This document shows positions 1,102-25,736 of a stretch of 64,000 nucleotides of DNA, piece after piece. A model generated the notes under the pieces. It was given only the letters and a program-made list of their open reading frames with translations. It did not search any database and was not told the origin of the DNA. Source of the DNA: Limimaricola variabilis. Lineage in GTDB: Bacteria > Pseudomonadota > Alphaproteobacteria > Rhodobacterales > Rhodobacteraceae. The translations under genes and the position numbers were made by a program. The stretch spans positions 1 to 64,000 of the forward strand of contig NZ_JACIBX010000005.1 of NCBI RefSeq assembly GCF_014195545.1. Reading direction: 5' to 3'. The number at the start of each line of letters is the position of its first letter. Positions within the stretch are counted from its first letter, which is position 1.

Positions 1102-1707
1102 TCAGATCAGGCTGCGGTCGCGCGCCATCATCGCCGCCTGGGTGCGGTTCCGCGCGCCCAGCTTGCGGCACAGCGTCTTGACGTGCAGCTTGACCGTCAC
1201 CTCCTGGATCTCGTGGTCGCGGGCGATCTCCTTGTTCGATTTCCCCTCTGTCAGCCCCTGCAGCACCTGCCGCTCGCGCGGGGTGAGCAGGTGCCGCTCC
1301 GTGGGAACGTCATTGGCGCTCAGGAAGTCGTGCGGCGCGTAGGTCTCGCCCATCGCCATGAACTTCACGGCGTTGACCAGCGACCGCGCGGTCATGGTCT
1401 TGGGCACAAACCCGGCCGCCCCGGCGGCGAGCGCGGCTTCGGCCACGGCGCGGTCGGCGATGCCCGACATCAGCGCCACCGGGTTGCCGCCGGCGAGGTC
1501 GAGCGCGGCCTGTAGCCCGTTCAGCCCCTCCATGCCGGGCATCATGTAGTCGAGCAGCACCAGCTCGAAGGGCCCGGCCCGCTGCATCTCGGTCATGGCG
1601 GCGGTGTGGCTGTCGCACTGGATCACCCGCATGCCGCCGTCGAGCTCCAGAAGAGCCGCCATCATTTCCCGCACCAGACCATGATCGTCGGCGATCAGAA
1701 TTCGCAT
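1102..1707 (-). CDS. LuxR/NarL-type response regulator (copy 1)
   Basis: A 201-residue two-domain regulator. The receiver domain (1-120) has the acidic pair D8-D9, the phosphoacceptor D53 in LVLLDYMMPG and K102. The C-terminal LuxR helix-turn-helix (about 139-195) starts LTPRERQVLQGL and contains the recognition stretch EVTVKLHVKTL. The start at 1707 is where MRILIADDH begins; a longer in-frame ORF adds 16 non-family residues. It is divergent from the SUOX-like gene at 1977. It is about 70 percent identical by eye to the regulator at 21694-22302, which lies next to a similar SUOX-like gene and a hybrid kinase. No kinase lies next to this copy, so it may be driven by the kinase at 23145-25736. 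Confidence 0.92.
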   Translation of the reverse strand: MRILIADDHGLVREMMAALLELDGGMRVIQCDSHTAAMTEMQRAGPFELVLLDYMMPGMEGLNGLQAALDLAGGNPVALMSGIADRAVAEAALAAGAAGFVPKTMTARSLVNAVKFMAMGETYAPHDFLSANDVPTERHLLTPRERQVLQGLTEGKSNKEIARDHEIQEVTVKLHVKTLCRKLGARNRTQAAMMARDRSLI

Positions 1708-1836
1708 TTCACCCTCCGGTGGTGGCAAGGACTGGTCAGATCCCTTATGCGGCAAGAACCTTGACGAATTCGGGCAACGGTGTGTCCGGCTGCCCGATCA
1801 TGCGCGTGACGGTGCGTCGCTTTCGTCGCGCCGCCT

Positions 1837-1854: not shown

Positions 1855-1976
1855 CGACCCTATGCGGACAGGTCGGCGACCCTACCCATCTGAGTAAGAA
1901 GCTCTCCCAATGCGAAGTGGCCTTGGGAATAGAGTTGGGGCATTTTCCTGGAGATGCAACCGGAAGGCGATAACGC

Positions 1977-2462
1977 ATGTTCAGGACTGCACTCAATCCC
2001 TTGCTCTTTCTGCTTCTGGCTGCGCTGCCTCTCCCGCTTTCCGCCGAGACGGGCCTGCCGCTTCGGGTGACCGGGCCGGATCGGACGGTGACACTGTTCG
2101 ACCTCGAGGCGCTAGACGCGCTGCCGCAGGAGAGCTTCGTCACCGGCACGATCTGGACCGACGGCCAGGCACAATTCTCCGGCGTGCCGCTGGCGGCGCT
2201 GCTCGACCGGACCGGTATCGCGGGCATGGCTGACCAAGTGGAATTGGTGGCGCTGAACGACTACCGGATCGAGATTCCGGTCGCGGAGATCGATCCGAAC
2301 GCGCCGATCATCGCGACCCGGGTCGATGGCCGGGCCATGCCGGTGCGCGAAAAGGGGCCGTTCTGGCTGGTCTATCCCTATGACCGGGATTCGCGCTACC
2401 GCACCGAGACGACCTTCGCGCGCAGCATCTGGCAACTCACGCAGGTCAACGCCGCACGCTGA
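1977..2462 (+). CDS. secreted SUOX-like (molybdopterin-binding-fold) protein, copy 1, cysteine-free
   Basis: 161 residues. The N-terminus is a signal peptide (about 1-23, ending LPLSA). The rest resembles the oxidoreductase molybdopterin-binding (SUOX) fold in a short form: TGTIWTDGQAQFSGVPLAAL near residue 55, ALNDYRIEIP near 90, and REKGPFWLVYPYDR near 122. There is no cysteine in the entire protein, so the cysteine that ligates molybdenum in sulfite oxidase-type enzymes is absent. That suggests a binding or sensing role rather than catalysis (inference). It is divergent from response regulator copy 1. It closely matches the protein at 22550-23131, with a similar core and a shorter N-terminal linker. 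The function is unknown; an exported ligand-sensing partner of a kinase is my best guess. Confidence 0.8.
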   Translation: MFRTALNPLLFLLLAALPLPLSAETGLPLRVTGPDRTVTLFDLEALDALPQESFVTGTIWTDGQAQFSGVPLAALLDRTGIAGMADQVELVALNDYRIEIPVAEIDPNAPIIATRVDGRAMPVREKGPFWLVYPYDRDSRYRTETTFARSIWQLTQVNAAR

Positions 2463-20819: not shown

Positions 20820-21689
20820 GTGGCCGTCCCCGAGAACCGCATCCCGCAGCTCTCGTCCGAGGCGGATTGCGAGGAGATCGCGCGGCTCCTGACGACCTAC
20901 GCCTTCTCTTGGGACATCGAGCGAGCGCTCGAACTGGCGCTGTTTCGCAGCTACGCCGTGCCGTCGATCTCGGATCTCTTGATGAAGACCCGCGAATTCG
21001 CCGAACGGCCCCGCAAGCGTTATGATGACACCGAGCTGCTGATCTCCGAGCCGATGGAGAACGGCATCGACAGCGACCGCGGCCGCGCCGCGATCGGCCG
21101 CATCAACGCGATGCATGGCCATTACCGCATCGCCGATGACGACATGCTCTACGTGCTGTGCACCTTCGTGCTCGAGCCGATCCGTTGGCTCGACCGTTTC
21201 GGCAGACAGCCGATGACGGCGCATGAGCGCGCGGCATGGACCAATTATCACCGCCGGCTCGGGGCCCGGATGGGGATCGCCGGAATCCCGGCGGATCTGG
21301 CCGGCTTTGAGGCATTTGCCGCCGCCTTCGAGCGCGACCGCTTTCGCTTTGCGCCGAGCAACGCGGCGCTGGCCGGGATCACCTTGGAGCTGTTGCTCGG
21401 CTTCTACCTGCCGCGCCGCCTTCATCGTTTCGGTCGACCGGTGGCACTGGCGCTGATGGACACGCCGCTGCTGTTGGCGACCGGCCTGCCGGCCCCATCC
21501 GACCGGCTGCGGCGCTGGGTGCATCTGGCGATGCGTGGGCGGGCCCGACTGCTGCGCTGTTTGCCGCGTCGACGCTGGCCACGGCTGGTGACCGCGCGGC
21601 GGCGGCCAGGCTATCCCGGCGGCTACCGGATTTCGGAACTCGGCACATGGCCGCAGACAAAGGAGAGGGCCGAACGGGCCGGGGCCTGA
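20820..21689 (+). CDS. MpaB-family (DUF2236) oxygenase-like protein
   Basis: 289 residues starting at GTG, 4 bases after the aroQ stop. It resembles the oxygenase MpaB / rubber-oxygenase catalytic domain family: GRINAMHGHYRIADDDMLY near residue 95 with the family's His, then LCTFVLEPIRWLDRFG near 119 and MTAHERAAWTNYHRRLG near 138. Members are haem proteins or putative oxygenases of unclear substrate. The C-terminus is very basic (RARLLRCLPRRRWPRLVTARRR) and ends GYPGGYRISELGTWPQ. It converges on response regulator copy 2 with 4 bases between them. The biochemical role is unknown. Confidence 0.75.
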   Translation: MAVPENRIPQLSSEADCEEIARLLTTYAFSWDIERALELALFRSYAVPSISDLLMKTREFAERPRKRYDDTELLISEPMENGIDSDRGRAAIGRINAMHGHYRIADDDMLYVLCTFVLEPIRWLDRFGRQPMTAHERAAWTNYHRRLGARMGIAGIPADLAGFEAFAAAFERDRFRFAPSNAALAGITLELLLGFYLPRRLHRFGRPVALALMDTPLLLATGLPAPSDRLRRWVHLAMRGRARLLRCLPRRRWPRLVTARRRPGYPGGYRISELGTWPQTKERAERAGA

Positions 21690-21693
21690 GACG

Positions 21694-22302
21694 TCAGACC
21701 ATTTCCTGATCGCGCGCCATCATCGCGGCCTGAGTGCGGTTCTTGGCACCCATCTTGCGGCACAGCGTCTTCACGTGGAGCTTGACCGTGACCTCCTGGA
21801 TGTCGTGGTCGAGGGCGATCTCCTTGTTCGACTTGCCCTTGGAGATGCCCTCGAGCACTTGCCGCTCGCGCGGGGTGAGATGGGCCAGGGCCGGGTTCTC
21901 GACCTCCTTGGCGGTCATGAAGTCGACCGGCACGAAGGTCTCGCCCATGCTCATGAACTTGACCGCGTTGGTCATCGAGCGGGCCGACATGGTCTTGGGC
22001 AGGAAGCCCGCGGCGCCTGCGGCCAGCGCCTCTTCGGCGACCGACTTGTCGGCACTGCCGGAGATCAGCGCGACCGGGTTGCCGCCGGCAGCCTCGATCG
22101 CCTCGCGCAGCCCTTCCAGACCGCGCATTCCCGGCATCCGGAAATCGAGCAGCACGAGTTCGAAGGGGCCATTGCGCACCATCTCGCCCATCGCTTCCTC
22201 GAAGCTGGCGCACTGGATCACCTGCATGCCGCCGTCCCGCTCGAGATATGCCGCCATCATCTCGCGTACCAGGTCGTGGTCATCTGCGATCAGGATACGC
22301 AT
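21694..22302 (-). CDS. LuxR/NarL-type response regulator (copy 2)
   Basis: 202 residues. Receiver with D8-D9, D53 in LVLLDFRMPG and K102; the LuxR DNA-binding domain (about 140-196) begins LTPRERQVLEGI. The start at 22302 is MRILIADDHDL. About 70 percent identical by eye to the regulator at 1102-1707, with near-identical recognition helices (both EVTVKLHVKTLCRK), so both probably bind the same DNA sites. It is divergent from the SUOX-like gene and hybrid kinase at 22550-25736, and is the natural output regulator of that kinase. Confidence 0.93.
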   Translation of the reverse strand: MRILIADDHDLVREMMAAYLERDGGMQVIQCASFEEAMGEMVRNGPFELVLLDFRMPGMRGLEGLREAIEAAGGNPVALISGSADKSVAEEALAAGAAGFLPKTMSARSMTNAVKFMSMGETFVPVDFMTAKEVENPALAHLTPRERQVLEGISKGKSNKEIALDHDIQEVTVKLHVKTLCRKMGAKNRTQAAMMARDQEMV

Positions 22303-22323
22303 GGTCGGTCCTTTCGATTTCCG

Positions 22324-22350
22324 CCACGATCCGGCCGATCCGGGTCGTGG
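22324..22350. repeat. inverted repeat in the 5' region of response regulator copy 2
   Basis: CCACGATCCGG (22324-22334), five bases, CCGGGTCGTGG (22340-22350): an 11-bp inverted repeat with one mismatch, 22 bases before the regulator start. It could be an autoregulatory operator or a leader RNA hairpin. A second inverted repeat, AACCCC-N8-GGGGTT (22431-22450), lies nearer the SUOX-like gene. I did not find the same sequences upstream of copy 1. Confidence 0.4.
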
Positions 22351-22549
22351 CAACGTCATATTTAGGATACCGAGAATCGATAGGTCTTGAAACGGGCGAA
22401 TCCGAGGCCATCAAGCAGATTTCATAGGTTAACCCCCCGAAGCTGGGGTTTCGTGGCCACGGTCTGCGCGAGTGATAGCGAGGGGATTCGCAAATTGCGT
22501 CCAGATCGCGCATTCTGGACGTGGTTGCGCGAAGCGGAAAGGAGCCAGA

Positions 22550-23131
22550 ATGCAGTTGGTCTATGCGAGTGCTGTGATGGGATTGACCTTTTCCGGTCTG
22601 GCCCTGGTCGGACTCTCGATGCCCGGCTTCTCGGCTGCCGAAACCGATTCGACCCGCACCGAGGTCCAGCACGCCCCGGTCACGGACGAAAGCCGCTCCC
22701 AGATCGAGCCGGGCAAGCTGCGGATCGGCGGCCCCGATGTGACGCCTCTGGTGCTTGACCTGGCGGCGCTCGACGAGCTTGAGCAGGAAAGCTTCGAGAC
22801 CGGAACGATCTGGACCGATGGCGAGAGCCTGTTTTCCGGCGTACCGGTCGCGGCGCTGATCGAGGCGGCCGGGCTGAGCGAGCTCCGCAGCGACCCCGAC
22901 GCGGTGCTCGAGATGACGGCGCTCAACGACTACCGCGTGCGGATCCCGCTCTCGGACATCGAGGACCGGGTGCCGATCGTCGCCACACGGATCGACGGCG
23001 AAACCGTGTCTATCCGGGAAAAGGGTCCTTTCTGGATCGTCTATCCCTATGATCGGGGGCCGGAGTACCGCACCGAAGAGCATTACAAGCGGAGCATCTG
23101 GCAACTTGCGCAGATGACCGTGACGGAGTGA
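22550..23131 (+). CDS. secreted SUOX-like protein, copy 2, cysteine-free
   Basis: 193 residues. The N-terminus is a signal peptide or anchor (about 1-31, hydrophobic VMGLTFSGLALVGLSMPG), then a polar linker of about 30 residues, then the SUOX-like core: TGTIWTDGESLFSGVPVAAL near 85, MTALNDYRVRIPLSDI near 124 and REKGPFWIVYPYDRGPEYRT near 157. Like copy 1 it has no cysteine, so no canonical molybdenum ligand. Starts at ATG 22550 after AAAGGAG. The hybrid kinase gene begins 13 bases after its stop, so the two are one transcript. It is most likely a periplasmic partner of the kinase. Confidence 0.8.
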   Translation: MQLVYASAVMGLTFSGLALVGLSMPGFSAAETDSTRTEVQHAPVTDESRSQIEPGKLRIGGPDVTPLVLDLAALDELEQESFETGTIWTDGESLFSGVPVAALIEAAGLSELRSDPDAVLEMTALNDYRVRIPLSDIEDRVPIVATRIDGETVSIREKGPFWIVYPYDRGPEYRTEEHYKRSIWQLAQMTVTE

Positions 23132-23144
23132 CGGAGCCGCGCCG

Positions 23145-25736
23145 GTGAGTGTCCGGGAAGGCATCGGACATGGACTGGCGCGGCACCTCAACATCCGCAG
23201 TGGTCTGGGCATCGCCGCCGCGATCGTGCTCACGGCGGTGCTATCGCTCGGCTGGATGCTGGGCCGCCAGATCCGCGATCTCGAAAGCGCCGGCATCGAC
23301 AACACCCAGTGGACGCTGGCGCAGCTCGAACTCGAAACCGCGATCTTCGCGCGTGACGTGATCGCCGCCGGGCAGGGCGGCGCGCTGGGGCAGGGCCGCG
23401 ACGTCGCAGCCCTCAAGCTGCGTTTCGACATCCTTCTCAGCCGGCTCGGTCTGGTGCGCAGCGGCGAGATCGGCCGGCCGCTGCTCGAACATCCGGGCGT
23501 TCCGGCGCTGCTGGCGCAGATCGACGCCTATGCCGACCGGGTCGACGCGCTCTTCGCCGCGCCCGATGTCGGCTCGGAGGAGCTGCAGCGGATCTTCGAG
23601 GAGACGATCGGTGTGCAGCCGGTGATGCGGGAGCTGTCGCTGAACGGCCTCGACATCCTCGCCGAGGACGCCGAATCCTACCGCCACCGGGTGCGCAGGC
23701 AGGCCGAACTCACCGCCCTTGCCGGGGGGCTCCTGCTGATCCTGCTCGGCGCGCTGTTGCGGCTGATCGACGTGCAGCGCCGCCGCGTGGTCGAACGCGA
23801 CCGGGTGCTGTCGCGTACCGCCGAGCGGCTCAACTCGGTGATCGGCAACTCGCTCGATGCCATCGTGGTGGCGGACCGGCAGGGACGGATCATCGACTTC
23901 AACCCCGCCGCGGAAGAGATGTTCGGCTGGCGCAAATCCGAAATCCTGAGCCGGAAGGTGCGCGACACGCTGGTACCGGTGGAGCGGCGCGAGATCTTCG
24001 AGGAGCGGATCCGCACCTTTGCCGCGACTGGCCGGGAATACCTGATCGGCGCCGGCCGGGTCGAACTGGTGGCGCGGCGGCGTAATGGCGAGTTGTTCCC
24101 GATCGAGGCGGTGATGACCCATGTCGAGGGTCCGGAAGCGCCAGTCTTCATCGGCTATCTGCGCGATATCACCGATCTCAAGGCCAGCCAAGCGCGGCTG
24201 ATCGCGGCCCGCGACACCGCCGAGCGGGCCGACCGTGCCAAGTCGCGCTTCCTGTCGGTGATGAGCCACGAGATGCGCACCCCGCTCAACGGCATCATGG
24301 GGGTGCTCGACCTTCTCAACACCACCGCGCTGAGCCCCGACCAGCGGCGCCAGGTCGGCGTCGCTCTCGCCTCCGCCGAAATCCTGCTGCAGCTGGTCAA
24401 CGAATCGCTCGACATCACCCGCATCGAAACCGGCGAGGAGCGGATCGAGACAGTGGCCTTCGCGCCTGGCCCGATGCTGCAACGGCTGATCTCGGTGCTG
24501 CGCCCGCTCGCGGCCGAGAAGGATCTGCCGCTCGACCTCGATGCCGATGAGACCGATCTCGGCGCCTGGTTCGAGGGCGACCCGAACCGCGTCGCGCAGG
24601 TGGTCACCAACCTGATCGGCAACGCCATCAAGTTCACCGAGCGCGGTGGCATCACCGTGTCGCTCCGCCTCGCGGAAACCGGGATCGAAATCACGGTGCG
24701 CGACACCGGCATCGGCATCGCCGAAGCCGACCTCGAACGGGTCTTCGCGGAGTTCGTGACCCGGGCCCGCCCGGAGGGACGGCAGGGGCGCTCCGACGGG
24801 CTTGGCCTTGCCATTTCGCGGCGGCTGGCGCGGATGATGTCGGGCGACATCACCGTCTCCAGCGTCCCGGGCGAGGGCAGCACCTTCCGGCTGTCGCTGC
24901 CACTGCCCCAGATTGCCCCGCAGCTGGAGGCGCCCGAGCCGATCCCGGAACCCGCGACGCCCGGATCGGCGCTGTCGGTGCTCGTGATCGAGGATAACGC
25001 GGTCAACCGGATGGTGCTGCGCGGCATGCTCCAGCAACTCGGTCACATCGTCTCCGAGGCCTCGAACGGGGCGAAGGGGCTGGAGCGGCTGCGGGCAGAG
25101 CATTTCGACCTGGTGCTGATGGATTTCGAGATGCCGGTGATGGGCGGGATCGAAGCCGCGCAGGCGATCCGCGACAGCTTCCCGGCCGATCGTCGGCCAC
25201 CGGTCATCGGGCTGACCGCGCATGGCACCGCCGAGGCCCGCGCCGCGGGCGTCAATGCCGGCATGAGCGAGGTCTATGCCAAGCCGCTGCGCCTGCCGGT
25301 GATCCGGCGCATCCTCGACGGGATCGGTACGCGCGGCGAGATGCGCGGAGCTATACCGGATTGTCCTCCCGATCCGATGCCGGTCGGCGCGCTGGTGGAT
25401 TCGGATGATTTCGAGGAAGTGGTCGAGATGCTGGGTGCCGAGCGGATCGGGGCGGCGCTCGACGGCTTCGAGCGCGAATGGCACGAGGCCCGTCCCGTGC
25501 TGGCGGGACTGATCGAGGCTGAAAATGACGTCGTGGCAGTGGCGCACAAGCTGCGCGGTGGTGCGGCGATGCTGGCGCTGGCGGGCCCGGTCCAGAGCCT
25601 TGGCCGGATTGAGCGCCGGGCGCCGCAGCGATGCACGACGGCGGAGGTGGAGGCGCTGAACGCGCAGGTCGAGGCGGCGCTGGCCATGGCCCGCGACTGG
25701 CTCGCGGCCTGGGAGCCGGACGGGGCCGACGCCTGA
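23145..25736 (+). CDS. hybrid sensor histidine kinase (PAS-HisKA-HATPase-REC-HPt)
   Basis: 863 residues, GTG start. Two membrane helices (about 20-40 and 188-208) flank a mostly helical periplasmic segment of about 145 residues. A PAS domain follows (about 230-345; SLDAIVVADRQGRIIDFNPA), then HisKA with H375 in SHEMRTPLNG, an ATPase domain with N box NLIGNAIKF and G box DTGIGIA, a receiver with D660 (LVLMDFEMP), and a C-terminal HPt domain with H801 (VAHKLRGGAAML). This is a complete His-Asp-His chain that needs a separate response regulator; the divergent LuxR gene supplies one. Co-transcribed with the SUOX-like gene, so that protein may deliver the signal to the periplasmic segment (inference). 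Confidence 0.93.
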   Translation: MSVREGIGHGLARHLNIRSGLGIAAAIVLTAVLSLGWMLGRQIRDLESAGIDNTQWTLAQLELETAIFARDVIAAGQGGALGQGRDVAALKLRFDILLSRLGLVRSGEIGRPLLEHPGVPALLAQIDAYADRVDALFAAPDVGSEELQRIFEETIGVQPVMRELSLNGLDILAEDAESYRHRVRRQAELTALAGGLLLILLGALLRLIDVQRRRVVERDRVLSRTAERLNSVIGNSLDAIVVADRQGRIIDFNPAAEEMFGWRKSEILSRKVRDTLVPVERREIFEERIRTFAATGREYLIGAGRVELVARRRNGELFPIEAVMTHVEGPEAPVFIGYLRDITDLKASQARLIAARDTAERADRAKSRFLSVMSHEMRTPLNGIMGVLDLLNTTALSPDQRRQVGVALASAEILLQLVNESLDITRIETGEERIETVAFAPGPMLQRLISVLRPLAAEKDLPLDLDADETDLGAWFEGDPNRVAQVVTNLIGNAIKFTERGGITVSLRLAETGIEITVRDTGIGIAEADLERVFAEFVTRARPEGRQGRSDGLGLAISRRLARMMSGDITVSSVPGEGSTFRLSLPLPQIAPQLEAPEPIPEPATPGSALSVLVIEDNAVNRMVLRGMLQQLGHIVSEASNGAKGLERLRAEHFDLVLMDFEMPVMGGIEAAQAIRDSFPADRRPPVIGLTAHGTAEARAAGVNAGMSEVYAKPLRLPVIRRILDGIGTRGEMRGAIPDCPPDPMPVGALVDSDDFEEVVEMLGAERIGAALDGFEREWHEARPVLAGLIEAENDVVAVAHKLRGGAAMLALAGPVQSLGRIERRAPQRCTTAEVEALNAQVEAALAMARDWLAAWEPDGADA

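Follow-up and report, generated by a model that had tools for sequence, protein, structure and literature searches.

A 64,000-nt stretch of DNA from the marine bacterium Limimaricola variabilis, of the Rhodobacteraceae (the window), probably encodes a pterin-sensing phosphorelay of the PruR-DTB class whose PruR-regulator half has been duplicated, giving one hybrid kinase, two PruR proteins and two response regulators. Sequence comparison establishes the membership in the PruR and DTB families and the conserved gene order; by their best PDB matches both SUOX-like proteins of the window are members of the pterin-binding PruR family, and presumably bind a pterin themselves. The earlier note on this DNA knew of no described system of this kind, a statement that does not hold, since the SUOX-like proteins are PruR and the kinase of locus 2 belongs, with its WX7E domain, to the published class of PruR-DTB (DcpA-TorS-BaeS type) systems, exemplified by Ruegeria pomeroyi DSS-3 WP_011045932.1 (PMC13259868).

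Organization of the two loci

Two divergent pairs of a regulator and a SUOX-like protein lie 20 kb apart, and a hybrid kinase follows one pair only (locus 2), where the pruR2 ORF is directly upstream of the kinase ORF with 13 bases between them. All five genes of this layout, already described in the earlier note, were found at the positions below; no kinase adjoins the locus-1 pruR, the segments TGTIWTDG, FSGVP, ALNDYR, REKGPFW and VYPYDR are indeed common to both SUOX-like proteins, and the regulators, said to be about 70% identical, measured 73%.

1102..1707 (-), RR1, NarL/FixJ-type response regulator, orphan (kinase-less) copy; mechanical ORF 1102-1755; REC 3.8e-19, GerE 1.7e-20
1881..1898 (no strand), candidate palindrome, weak form CCTACCCATCTGAGTAAG; 4.8 bits under a model trained without sequences of the genus
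1977..2462 (+), PruR1, SUOX-fold protein of the pterin-binding family, orphan copy; phmmer to 7kos, E 1.2e-25; signal-like N-terminus; AlphaFold2 and Foldseek
21694..22302 (-), RR2, NarL/FixJ-type response regulator, kinase-linked copy; mechanical ORF 21694-22359; REC and GerE
22550..23131 (+), PruR2, SUOX-fold protein of the pterin-binding family; mechanical ORF from 22472; phmmer to 7kos, E 9.1e-22
23145..25736 (+), DTB-type hybrid kinase; TM, periplasmic helical domain, TM, PAS, HisKA, HATPase, REC, HPt
23310..23336 (+), WX7E motif W56-TLAQLEL-E64 in the periplasmic domain of the kinase; motif as in PMC13259868

Conservation suggests starts at 1707 for RR1 and 22302 for RR2 (the M of MRILIADDH), and makes 22550 (MQLVYAS) the likely start of PruR2. 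Both regulators combine a REC domain carrying the phospho-acceptor Asp with a GerE DNA-binding domain, and D7, D8, D53 and K103 are invariant in a 16-row regulator alignment.

The hybrid kinase and related systems

The kinase had been presented as HisKA-REC-HPt, and these domains are present, in the fuller order listed above: PAS at residues 228-342, HisKA at 365-430, HATPase at 478-588, REC at 612-722 and a weak HPt at 775-846. The Hpt match, at 20.3 bits, lies under the Pfam cut-off of 24.6, a value reached or exceeded by all five of the relatives' REC-HPt kinases that were scanned. The model of the periplasmic domain (pLDDT 91.1) consists of long helices, and among 48 aligned periplasmic domains the W of WX7E is invariant and the E nearly so. 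A Foldseek comparison of this domain with the PDB gave no match at E <=0.001, only generic helical bundles, some of which come from chemoreceptor and kinase sensor domains. At locus 2 a WX7E periplasmic domain is joined to a two-component kinase, as in PruR-DTB systems; locus 1, with no neighbouring kinase, lacks the pruR-adjacent receptor of that class.

The likeness to PruR-DTB systems lies in a pruR gene directly upstream of a kinase with a WX7E periplasmic domain, PAS, HisKA, HATPase and REC (PMC13259868). Those systems, of which several per genome are known, are described as two-gene pruR-receptor operons (PMC13259868), whereas here there are in addition a NarL-type regulator, an HPt domain, a palindrome, an association with exopolysaccharide (EPS) genes and a kinase-less PruR-regulator copy. 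The terms 'LuxR' and 'response regulator' are absent from the main text of PMC13259868, and our literature searches found no regulator, palindrome or EPS link for PruR-DTB, although the 2024 primary PNAS study may mention a regulator. The PruA-PruR-DcpA system of Agrobacterium tumefaciens shares the PruR family, a WX7E membrane receptor and an output in polysaccharide and attachment (PMC13259868). DcpA, however, makes and degrades c-di-GMP (PMC13259868), whereas the system described here would pass a phosphorelay to a transcription factor, with a polysaccharide output that only the neighbouring genes of some relatives suggest; no GGDEF or EAL domain was found among the Pfam matches of the kinase, and membership in DcpA was rejected. 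NCBIfam model NF006598 (PruA) was exceeded in none of eight Limimaricola genomes, and likewise in none of 14 control genomes.

The present system also resembles TorT-TorS-TorR and those other systems in which a hybrid kinase with REC and HPt domains takes its input from a soluble periplasmic protein; the TorT fold, however, differs from that of PruR, and membership in TorS (TIGR02956) was rejected, the kinase scoring 338.5 bits against an equivalog cut-off of 676.5.

Duplication within Limimaricola and proposed wiring

Both trees point to a duplication of the PruR-regulator half within Limimaricola, which we take as established: that of PruR and that of the regulators each unite the two copies in a single supported clade confined to the genus (the kinase-linked regulator of genome G002, split over two frames, was left out of the regulator tree). 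Because both copies are, in addition, retained in seven of the eight Limimaricola genomes examined, that of the window included, the two-locus arrangement goes beyond chance; a PruR match with internal stops in genome G014 had been left out before counting. None of the seven orphan loci includes a kinase, and purifying selection is evident on both arms (dN/dS 0.02-0.38 in close pairs). The duplication offers a natural case of a split sensor-kinase-regulator triplet.

In the phosphorelay that we propose, a reduced pterin, the presumed ligand, would bind PruR in the periplasm, and pterin-loaded PruR would contact the kinase at its helical WX7E domain. Phosphate would pass from His to Asp to His through the REC and HPt domains and from there to both NarL-type regulators, RR2 and RR1, which may bind a palindrome, CCTATCC-N4-GGATAGG, the DNA binding and the direction of regulation both being conjectural. 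The earlier note had a periplasmic SUOX-fold protein feeding a kinase that controls two regulators; the protein encoded with the kinase and the duplicated module were recovered, and the control of two regulators is inferred.

One kinase plausibly serves both regulators, given that a profile search returned a single WX7E-domain protein in seven of eight Limimaricola genomes, the window's own among them (two in G002), and that alpha-1 is preserved, 13-16 of its 16 positions in six orphan regulators being identical to RR2 against 4-9 of 16 in seven outgroups. A second periplasmic match, from a single-sequence query, was weak (29%, E 0.05) and did not recur in the profile search, and beta5-alpha5 of the orphan regulators (14-15/19) is kept no better than the remaining REC. 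The single WX7E-domain protein, the preserved alpha-1 and the selection on both arms all speak against separate wiring, in which PruR1 would be a decoy or pterin buffer or act on a non-WX7E receptor, and RR1 would be phosphorylated by another kinase or work unphosphorylated. We consider such wiring unlikely; it would nevertheless fit the absence of a kinase from the orphan loci, the divergence of PruR1 from PruR2 (cores 54-56% identical, about 46% of core positions differing), the lone third PruR of five Limimaricola genomes, whose surroundings, over the stretch examined, include neither kinase nor regulator, and one same-family regulator that adjoins a REC-HPt kinase without a WX7E domain.

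Gene order and a palindrome in relatives

The earlier note had made its proposal depend on co-occurrence of the SUOX-like gene with the kinase or regulator in other genomes; this co-occurrence proved strongly conserved, so that the proposal withstood this first of its two tests. Among 75 pruR loci outside Limimaricola, 58 have a kinase with a WX7E-type domain (by profile), 40 a regulator within 5.5 kb, and 39 both. A second set was made up of the 80 most similar among 590 matches, related loci not being independent; ten Limimaricola loci already represented were removed before the counts of gene order, kinase tails, HPt motifs and EPS genes, and 60 of the 70 further loci have both a WX7E-type kinase and a regulator. 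A tail of REC-HPt length is present in every kinase at regulator-linked loci (106/106) versus 14/35 other pruR-linked kinases, and an HPt-like His motif in 75/106 versus 7/35 in its wider form (15/106 versus 2/35 in the initial narrow form).

At regulator-linked loci the 18-bp palindrome lies upstream of pruR, with a log-likelihood of 191.6 versus 40.9-46.2 in four shuffles; shuffled sets were run from fewer starts, 25 where the real family set was given 60 and 40 where the real genus set was given 80, and four near-duplicate intergenic regions were removed before training. It was detected at 33 of 40 held-out regulator-linked loci versus 3-4 of 35 regulator-less ones, and in the second set, drawn from the best 80 of 590 matches, at 52 of 60 and 6 of 10, respectively; at three of these last six the contig ends within 5 kb upstream. 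Across the loci compared, both REC-HPt kinases and the palindrome go with a NarL-type regulator near pruR. The position upstream of pruR in the wider family means that the loop would be autoregulated.

It is improbable that the palindrome is the site of some other regulator accompanying these loci rather than of the adjacent NarL-type one. Binding by the latter is a prediction, and the palindrome also turns up at some loci that lack the regulator (4 of 35, and 6 of 10 in the second set); against this stand the contrast between regulator-linked and regulator-less loci in the held-out set, the rarity of the strict form (only 44 places in 199 genomes, 3 for the reversed control), and the recurrence of the palindrome between a same-family regulator and a REC-HPt kinase where neither a WX7E domain nor pruR is present.

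Within Limimaricola the site was found at the kinase-less copy in six of seven genomes and at the kinase-linked copy in none of seven; with the palindrome left only there, the kinase arm of our proposed relay would tune PruR and regulator in a further, separate pool. At each of the six remaining orphan loci in the genus a strong site (12.7-22.0 bits) is set back from pruR by roughly as much as 1881-1898 is in the window. Against our reading, the window's own locus-1 site is weak, locus 2 lacks the palindrome altogether, and a site of at least 10 bits was found neither in the window nor in the sugar-transferase regions of five Limimaricola genomes. A scan of seven Limimaricola genomes allowing 2 mismatches gave 48-73 places each versus 76-109 for the reversed control, and therefore yields no Limimaricola regulon. 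A palindrome search confined to the genus brought up another motif, a weak one that we do not claim; at width 18 its log-likelihood was 48.7, and shuffles reached 28.9-30.7.

In three genera, palindromes also occur close to a pseudouridine synthase gene, and in two close genomes they lie within a DUF1153 gene, before a REC/Trans_reg_C regulator gene that we take to be ctrA-like; neither is claimed as a target.

Exopolysaccharide genes near regulator-linked loci

EPS-type genes lie near 31 of 100 regulator-linked loci versus 1 of 45 regulator-less loci, often with extra palindromes: they accompany 27 of the 37 regulator-linked loci with at least two palindrome sites, versus 4 of the other 63. 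None of these genes is present at 69 of the 100. This neighbourhood suggests surface-polysaccharide genes as the output in some relatives, and in many roseobacters the palindrome would also stand near the promoters of the surrounding EPS-type cluster. A roseobacter-type Wza was not found in seven Limimaricola genomes by a search run without a positive control.

We tentatively entertain, as somewhat less than an even prospect, a branched pterin phosphorelay in which one WX7E kinase serves two PruRs and two regulators, the ancestral site persists only at the kinase-less copy, so that pterin sensing would determine, as a feed-forward arm, how large a second PruR-regulator pool is, and in the wider roseobacters the relay controls EPS transcription directly, replacing the c-di-GMP route of Agrobacterium. 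If true, surface polysaccharide would be coupled to a redox-active pterin outside the cell with no need of c-di-GMP. Our reading of PMC13259868 found neither a partner regulator nor a DNA target nor an output named for the kinase-type PruR systems; with the conserved regulator, palindrome and EPS neighbourhood, each of the three can be put to the test in culturable roseobacters.

Assignment of the SUOX-like proteins to PruR

The first seven Foldseek matches of the PruR1 model (AlphaFold2, pLDDT 92.7) are all PruR crystal structures. PruR1 has 161 residues and PruR2 193 (from 22550), in a family of about 170, with N-termini judged hydrophobic by eye. In the alignment to chain 7kos the Trp of TIWTDG falls on W51, and it is invariant or nearly so in family alignments; its column is presumably that of the Mo-ligating Cys of SUOX. 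The N, Y and W of the pterin pocket are present in both proteins, at 7kos chain positions 83, 85 and 141, which are offset by a constant 19 from the published Asn102, Tyr104 and Trp160 (PMC13259868). That the two proteins are ordinary Mo-cofactor oxidoreductases whose genes just happen to neighbour a two-component system is scarcely credible and was rejected: PF00174 does match, above its cut-off for PruR1 and below it for PruR2, and PruR proteins are frequently annotated as molybdopterin oxidoreductases (PMC13259868), but PruR heads both the sequence and the fold matches with sulfite oxidases ranking lower, the expected cofactor Cys is replaced by Trp, and the gene order is conserved across many genera.

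The SUOX-like proteins and the kinase as a PruR-type system

Open reading frames were found at both loci where the earlier note had placed its genes, in an assembly of 37 contigs and 3.65 Mb:

1102-1755, minus strand: LuxR-type regulator of locus 1 (RR1), ORF; conserved start suggests 1707
1977-2462, plus strand: SUOX-like protein of locus 1 (PruR1), ORF
21694-22359, minus strand: LuxR-type regulator of locus 2 (RR2), ORF; conserved start suggests 22302
22472-23131, plus strand: SUOX-like protein of locus 2 (PruR2), ORF; conserved start suggests 22550
23145-25736, plus strand: kinase of locus 2, ORF

The best solved-structure matches of both PruR1 and PruR2 were 7kos/7kou, 7rkb, 7kom and 7kp2 (E 1.7e-15 to 1.2e-25), all titled as pterin-binding protein PruR. 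The AlphaFold2 model of PruR1 (pLDDT 92.7) retrieved crystal structures of Agrobacterium, Vibrio and Klebsiella PruR as the top seven Foldseek matches, with sulfite oxidases ranking below. According to a review, a Trp in PruR replaces the Mo-ligating Cys, and N102, Y104 and W160 are pocket residues (PMC13259868); these correspond to 7kos chain positions 83, 85 and 141 (constant offset 19), and both PruR1 and PruR2 retain their equivalents. The same review defines PruR-DTB systems, in which the gene after pruR encodes a kinase whose periplasmic domain carries WX7E (PMC13259868). In the locus-2 kinase the motif is W56-X7-E64, and across 48 aligned domains the W is invariant and the E nearly so; the periplasmic domain is predicted with high confidence to form long helices.

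The two regulators, about 70% identical by eye in the earlier note, are 73% identical when aligned and both contain REC and GerE domains (Pfam), while the SUOX-like cores of the two loci share 54-56% identity. PAS, HisKA, HATPase and REC domains were detected in the kinase, besides a sub-threshold Hpt match (Pfam); Hpt was at or above the Pfam cut-off in 5/5 long-tailed kinases scanned from relatives, and absent in the Pfam scan of the shorter kinase of a regulator-less locus (L066). A 289-aa ORF convergent with RR2 (20820-21689) gave no Pfam match at E 0.1.

Conserved neighbourhood and the long-tailed kinase

A survey of 90 Rhodobacteraceae genomes, each standing for one genus, detected PruR in 58. 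We mapped 96 pruR loci, 75 of them outside Limimaricola, leaving out a match with internal stops in G014. The association of the SUOX-like gene with kinase and regulator, which the earlier note had proposed to search for, recurs widely: 39 of the 75 non-genus loci combine a WX7E-type kinase (profile match) with a NarL-type regulator within 5.5 kb, and both genes are present in 60 of 70 further, named loci (the best 80 of 590 matches minus ten duplicates), the regulator being divergent and at most 900 bases upstream in 35 of these 60. The remaining non-genus loci have a WX7E-type kinase without regulator (19), another kinase only (7), neither (9), or, at L060, a regulator and a 251-aa receptor fragment whose frame ends near the contig end. 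This truncated receptor gene lies beside pruR (L060 1-1090), with a transposase-like ORF, by eye, nearby.

The regulator goes with a long-tailed kinase, since a tail of REC-HPt length (at least 225 aa beyond the catalytic core) is found in 106/106 regulator-linked kinases versus 14/35 other pruR-linked ones, and an HPt-type histidine motif in 75/106 versus 7/35. Judged from sequence, this pairing is what a phosphorelay would require.

A palindrome linked to the regulator

An 18-bp palindrome, cCTATaCnatnGtATAGg, was found in intergenic regions of 41 loci (log-likelihood 191.6, width 18), compared with 40.9-46.2 in four dinucleotide shuffles, which were run with fewer starts than the real data. 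In four-fold cross-validation on non-genus loci it was recovered in 33/40 held-out regulator-linked loci versus 3-4/35 regulator-less ones, depending on the fold. Among named loci outside the training set (from the best 80 of 590 matches) it occurred in 52/60 regulator-linked loci and 6/10 others; in three of these six the contig stops no more than 5 kb upstream. A strict scan of 40 genomes with CTATMCNWWNGKATAG gave 30 places versus 2 in the reversed control, 13 of the 30 lying 180-310 bases before a PruR domain. At L161 (270-3860) the palindrome stands between a NarL-type regulator of the same family and a facing PAS-HisKA-REC-HPt kinase that does not match the WX7E domain, and the 6.1 kb retrieved there contain no pruR; because it is present there beside the regulator, the palindrome appears tied to the regulator.

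In three genera the palindrome also precedes a gene for a pseudouridine synthase (PseudoU_synth_2 and S4; L164 3033, L171 2996, L173 3021). In two close Limimaricola genomes (L169 1626, L167 2963) a perfect copy overlaps a DUF1153 gene at its 3' end, immediately ahead of a ctrA-like regulator gene, and may be a coding coincidence.

Exopolysaccharide genes

At loci from Ruegeria, Roseobacter, Phaeobacter and Thioclava the system is surrounded by exopolysaccharide-type (EPS-type) genes, and several palindromes lie near promoters in such clusters. Five of the seven seeds (Ruegeria and Roseobacter examples) are Pfam-supported, namely a WecG/sugar-transferase fusion, a nucleotidyl transferase, a polysaccharide export protein, a flippase-like polysaccharide protein and a glycosyl transferase; a chain-length-like seed had a weak match and the seventh none. 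Among 100 non-genus regulator-linked loci, one or more of these seven genes occur in 31 and three or more in 22, the other 69 having none in the fetched stretch; the count is 1/45 for regulator-less loci and 0/19 for Limimaricola loci, the window's included. Within the 100, EPS-type genes accompany 27/37 loci with two or more sites versus 4/63 others. No strong site was found in the sugar-transferase regions of five Limimaricola genomes. A polysaccharide output would fit that of the Agrobacterium PruR-DcpA pathway (PMC13259868).

Duplication within Limimaricola and a proposed shared kinase

The kinase-less and full copies occur together in 7 of 8 Limimaricola genomes; the exception, G004, carries just one pruR-kinase pair, of a more distant type, whereas a third such pair, lacking a regulator, is found in G002. 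The PruR tree places each of the two copies in its own supported clade of 7 rows (96/87 and 99/98); together with the third G002 copy these clades make up one genus-only clade (100/97) with no resolved inner order. All 13 regulators of the genus group in a single clade (100/100) in which the six kinase-linked ones are nested as a clade (100/100), the orphan regulators forming no single resolved clade. Both arms are under purifying selection (dN/dS 0.02-0.38, two close genome pairs). With a palindrome model trained without genus sequences, 6/7 orphan loci score 12.7-22.0 bits and window locus 1 scores a weak 4.8 bits; the palindrome is absent from 7/7 kinase-linked loci (at most 1.5 bits).

A profile search detected one WX7E-domain protein per Limimaricola genome (two in G002); a single-sequence query of the window's own genome added one weak match (E 0.05). 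The alpha-1 segment of response regulators contacts phosphotransfer partners, and here six orphan regulators are identical to RR2 at 13-16 of 16 positions, seven regulators of other genera at 4-9. The beta5-alpha5 segment of orphan regulators (14-15/19) is no more conserved than the remainder of REC, and recognition-helix segments are identical at 16/17 positions. We favour the reading that one kinase feeds both regulators, and infer the binding, phosphotransfer and regulation that the proposed relay would involve.

In G002 (L037 6746-7413 and L039), the genome with the third pruR-kinase pair, the kinase-linked regulator falls in two reading frames, by a frameshift or an assembly error. The window's own genome also holds a degraded third pruR interrupted by in-frame stops (L003 1330-1710; contig C8, near 24354), and an intact lone pruR of the same, more distant type is present in five congeners, with similar neighbours in some.
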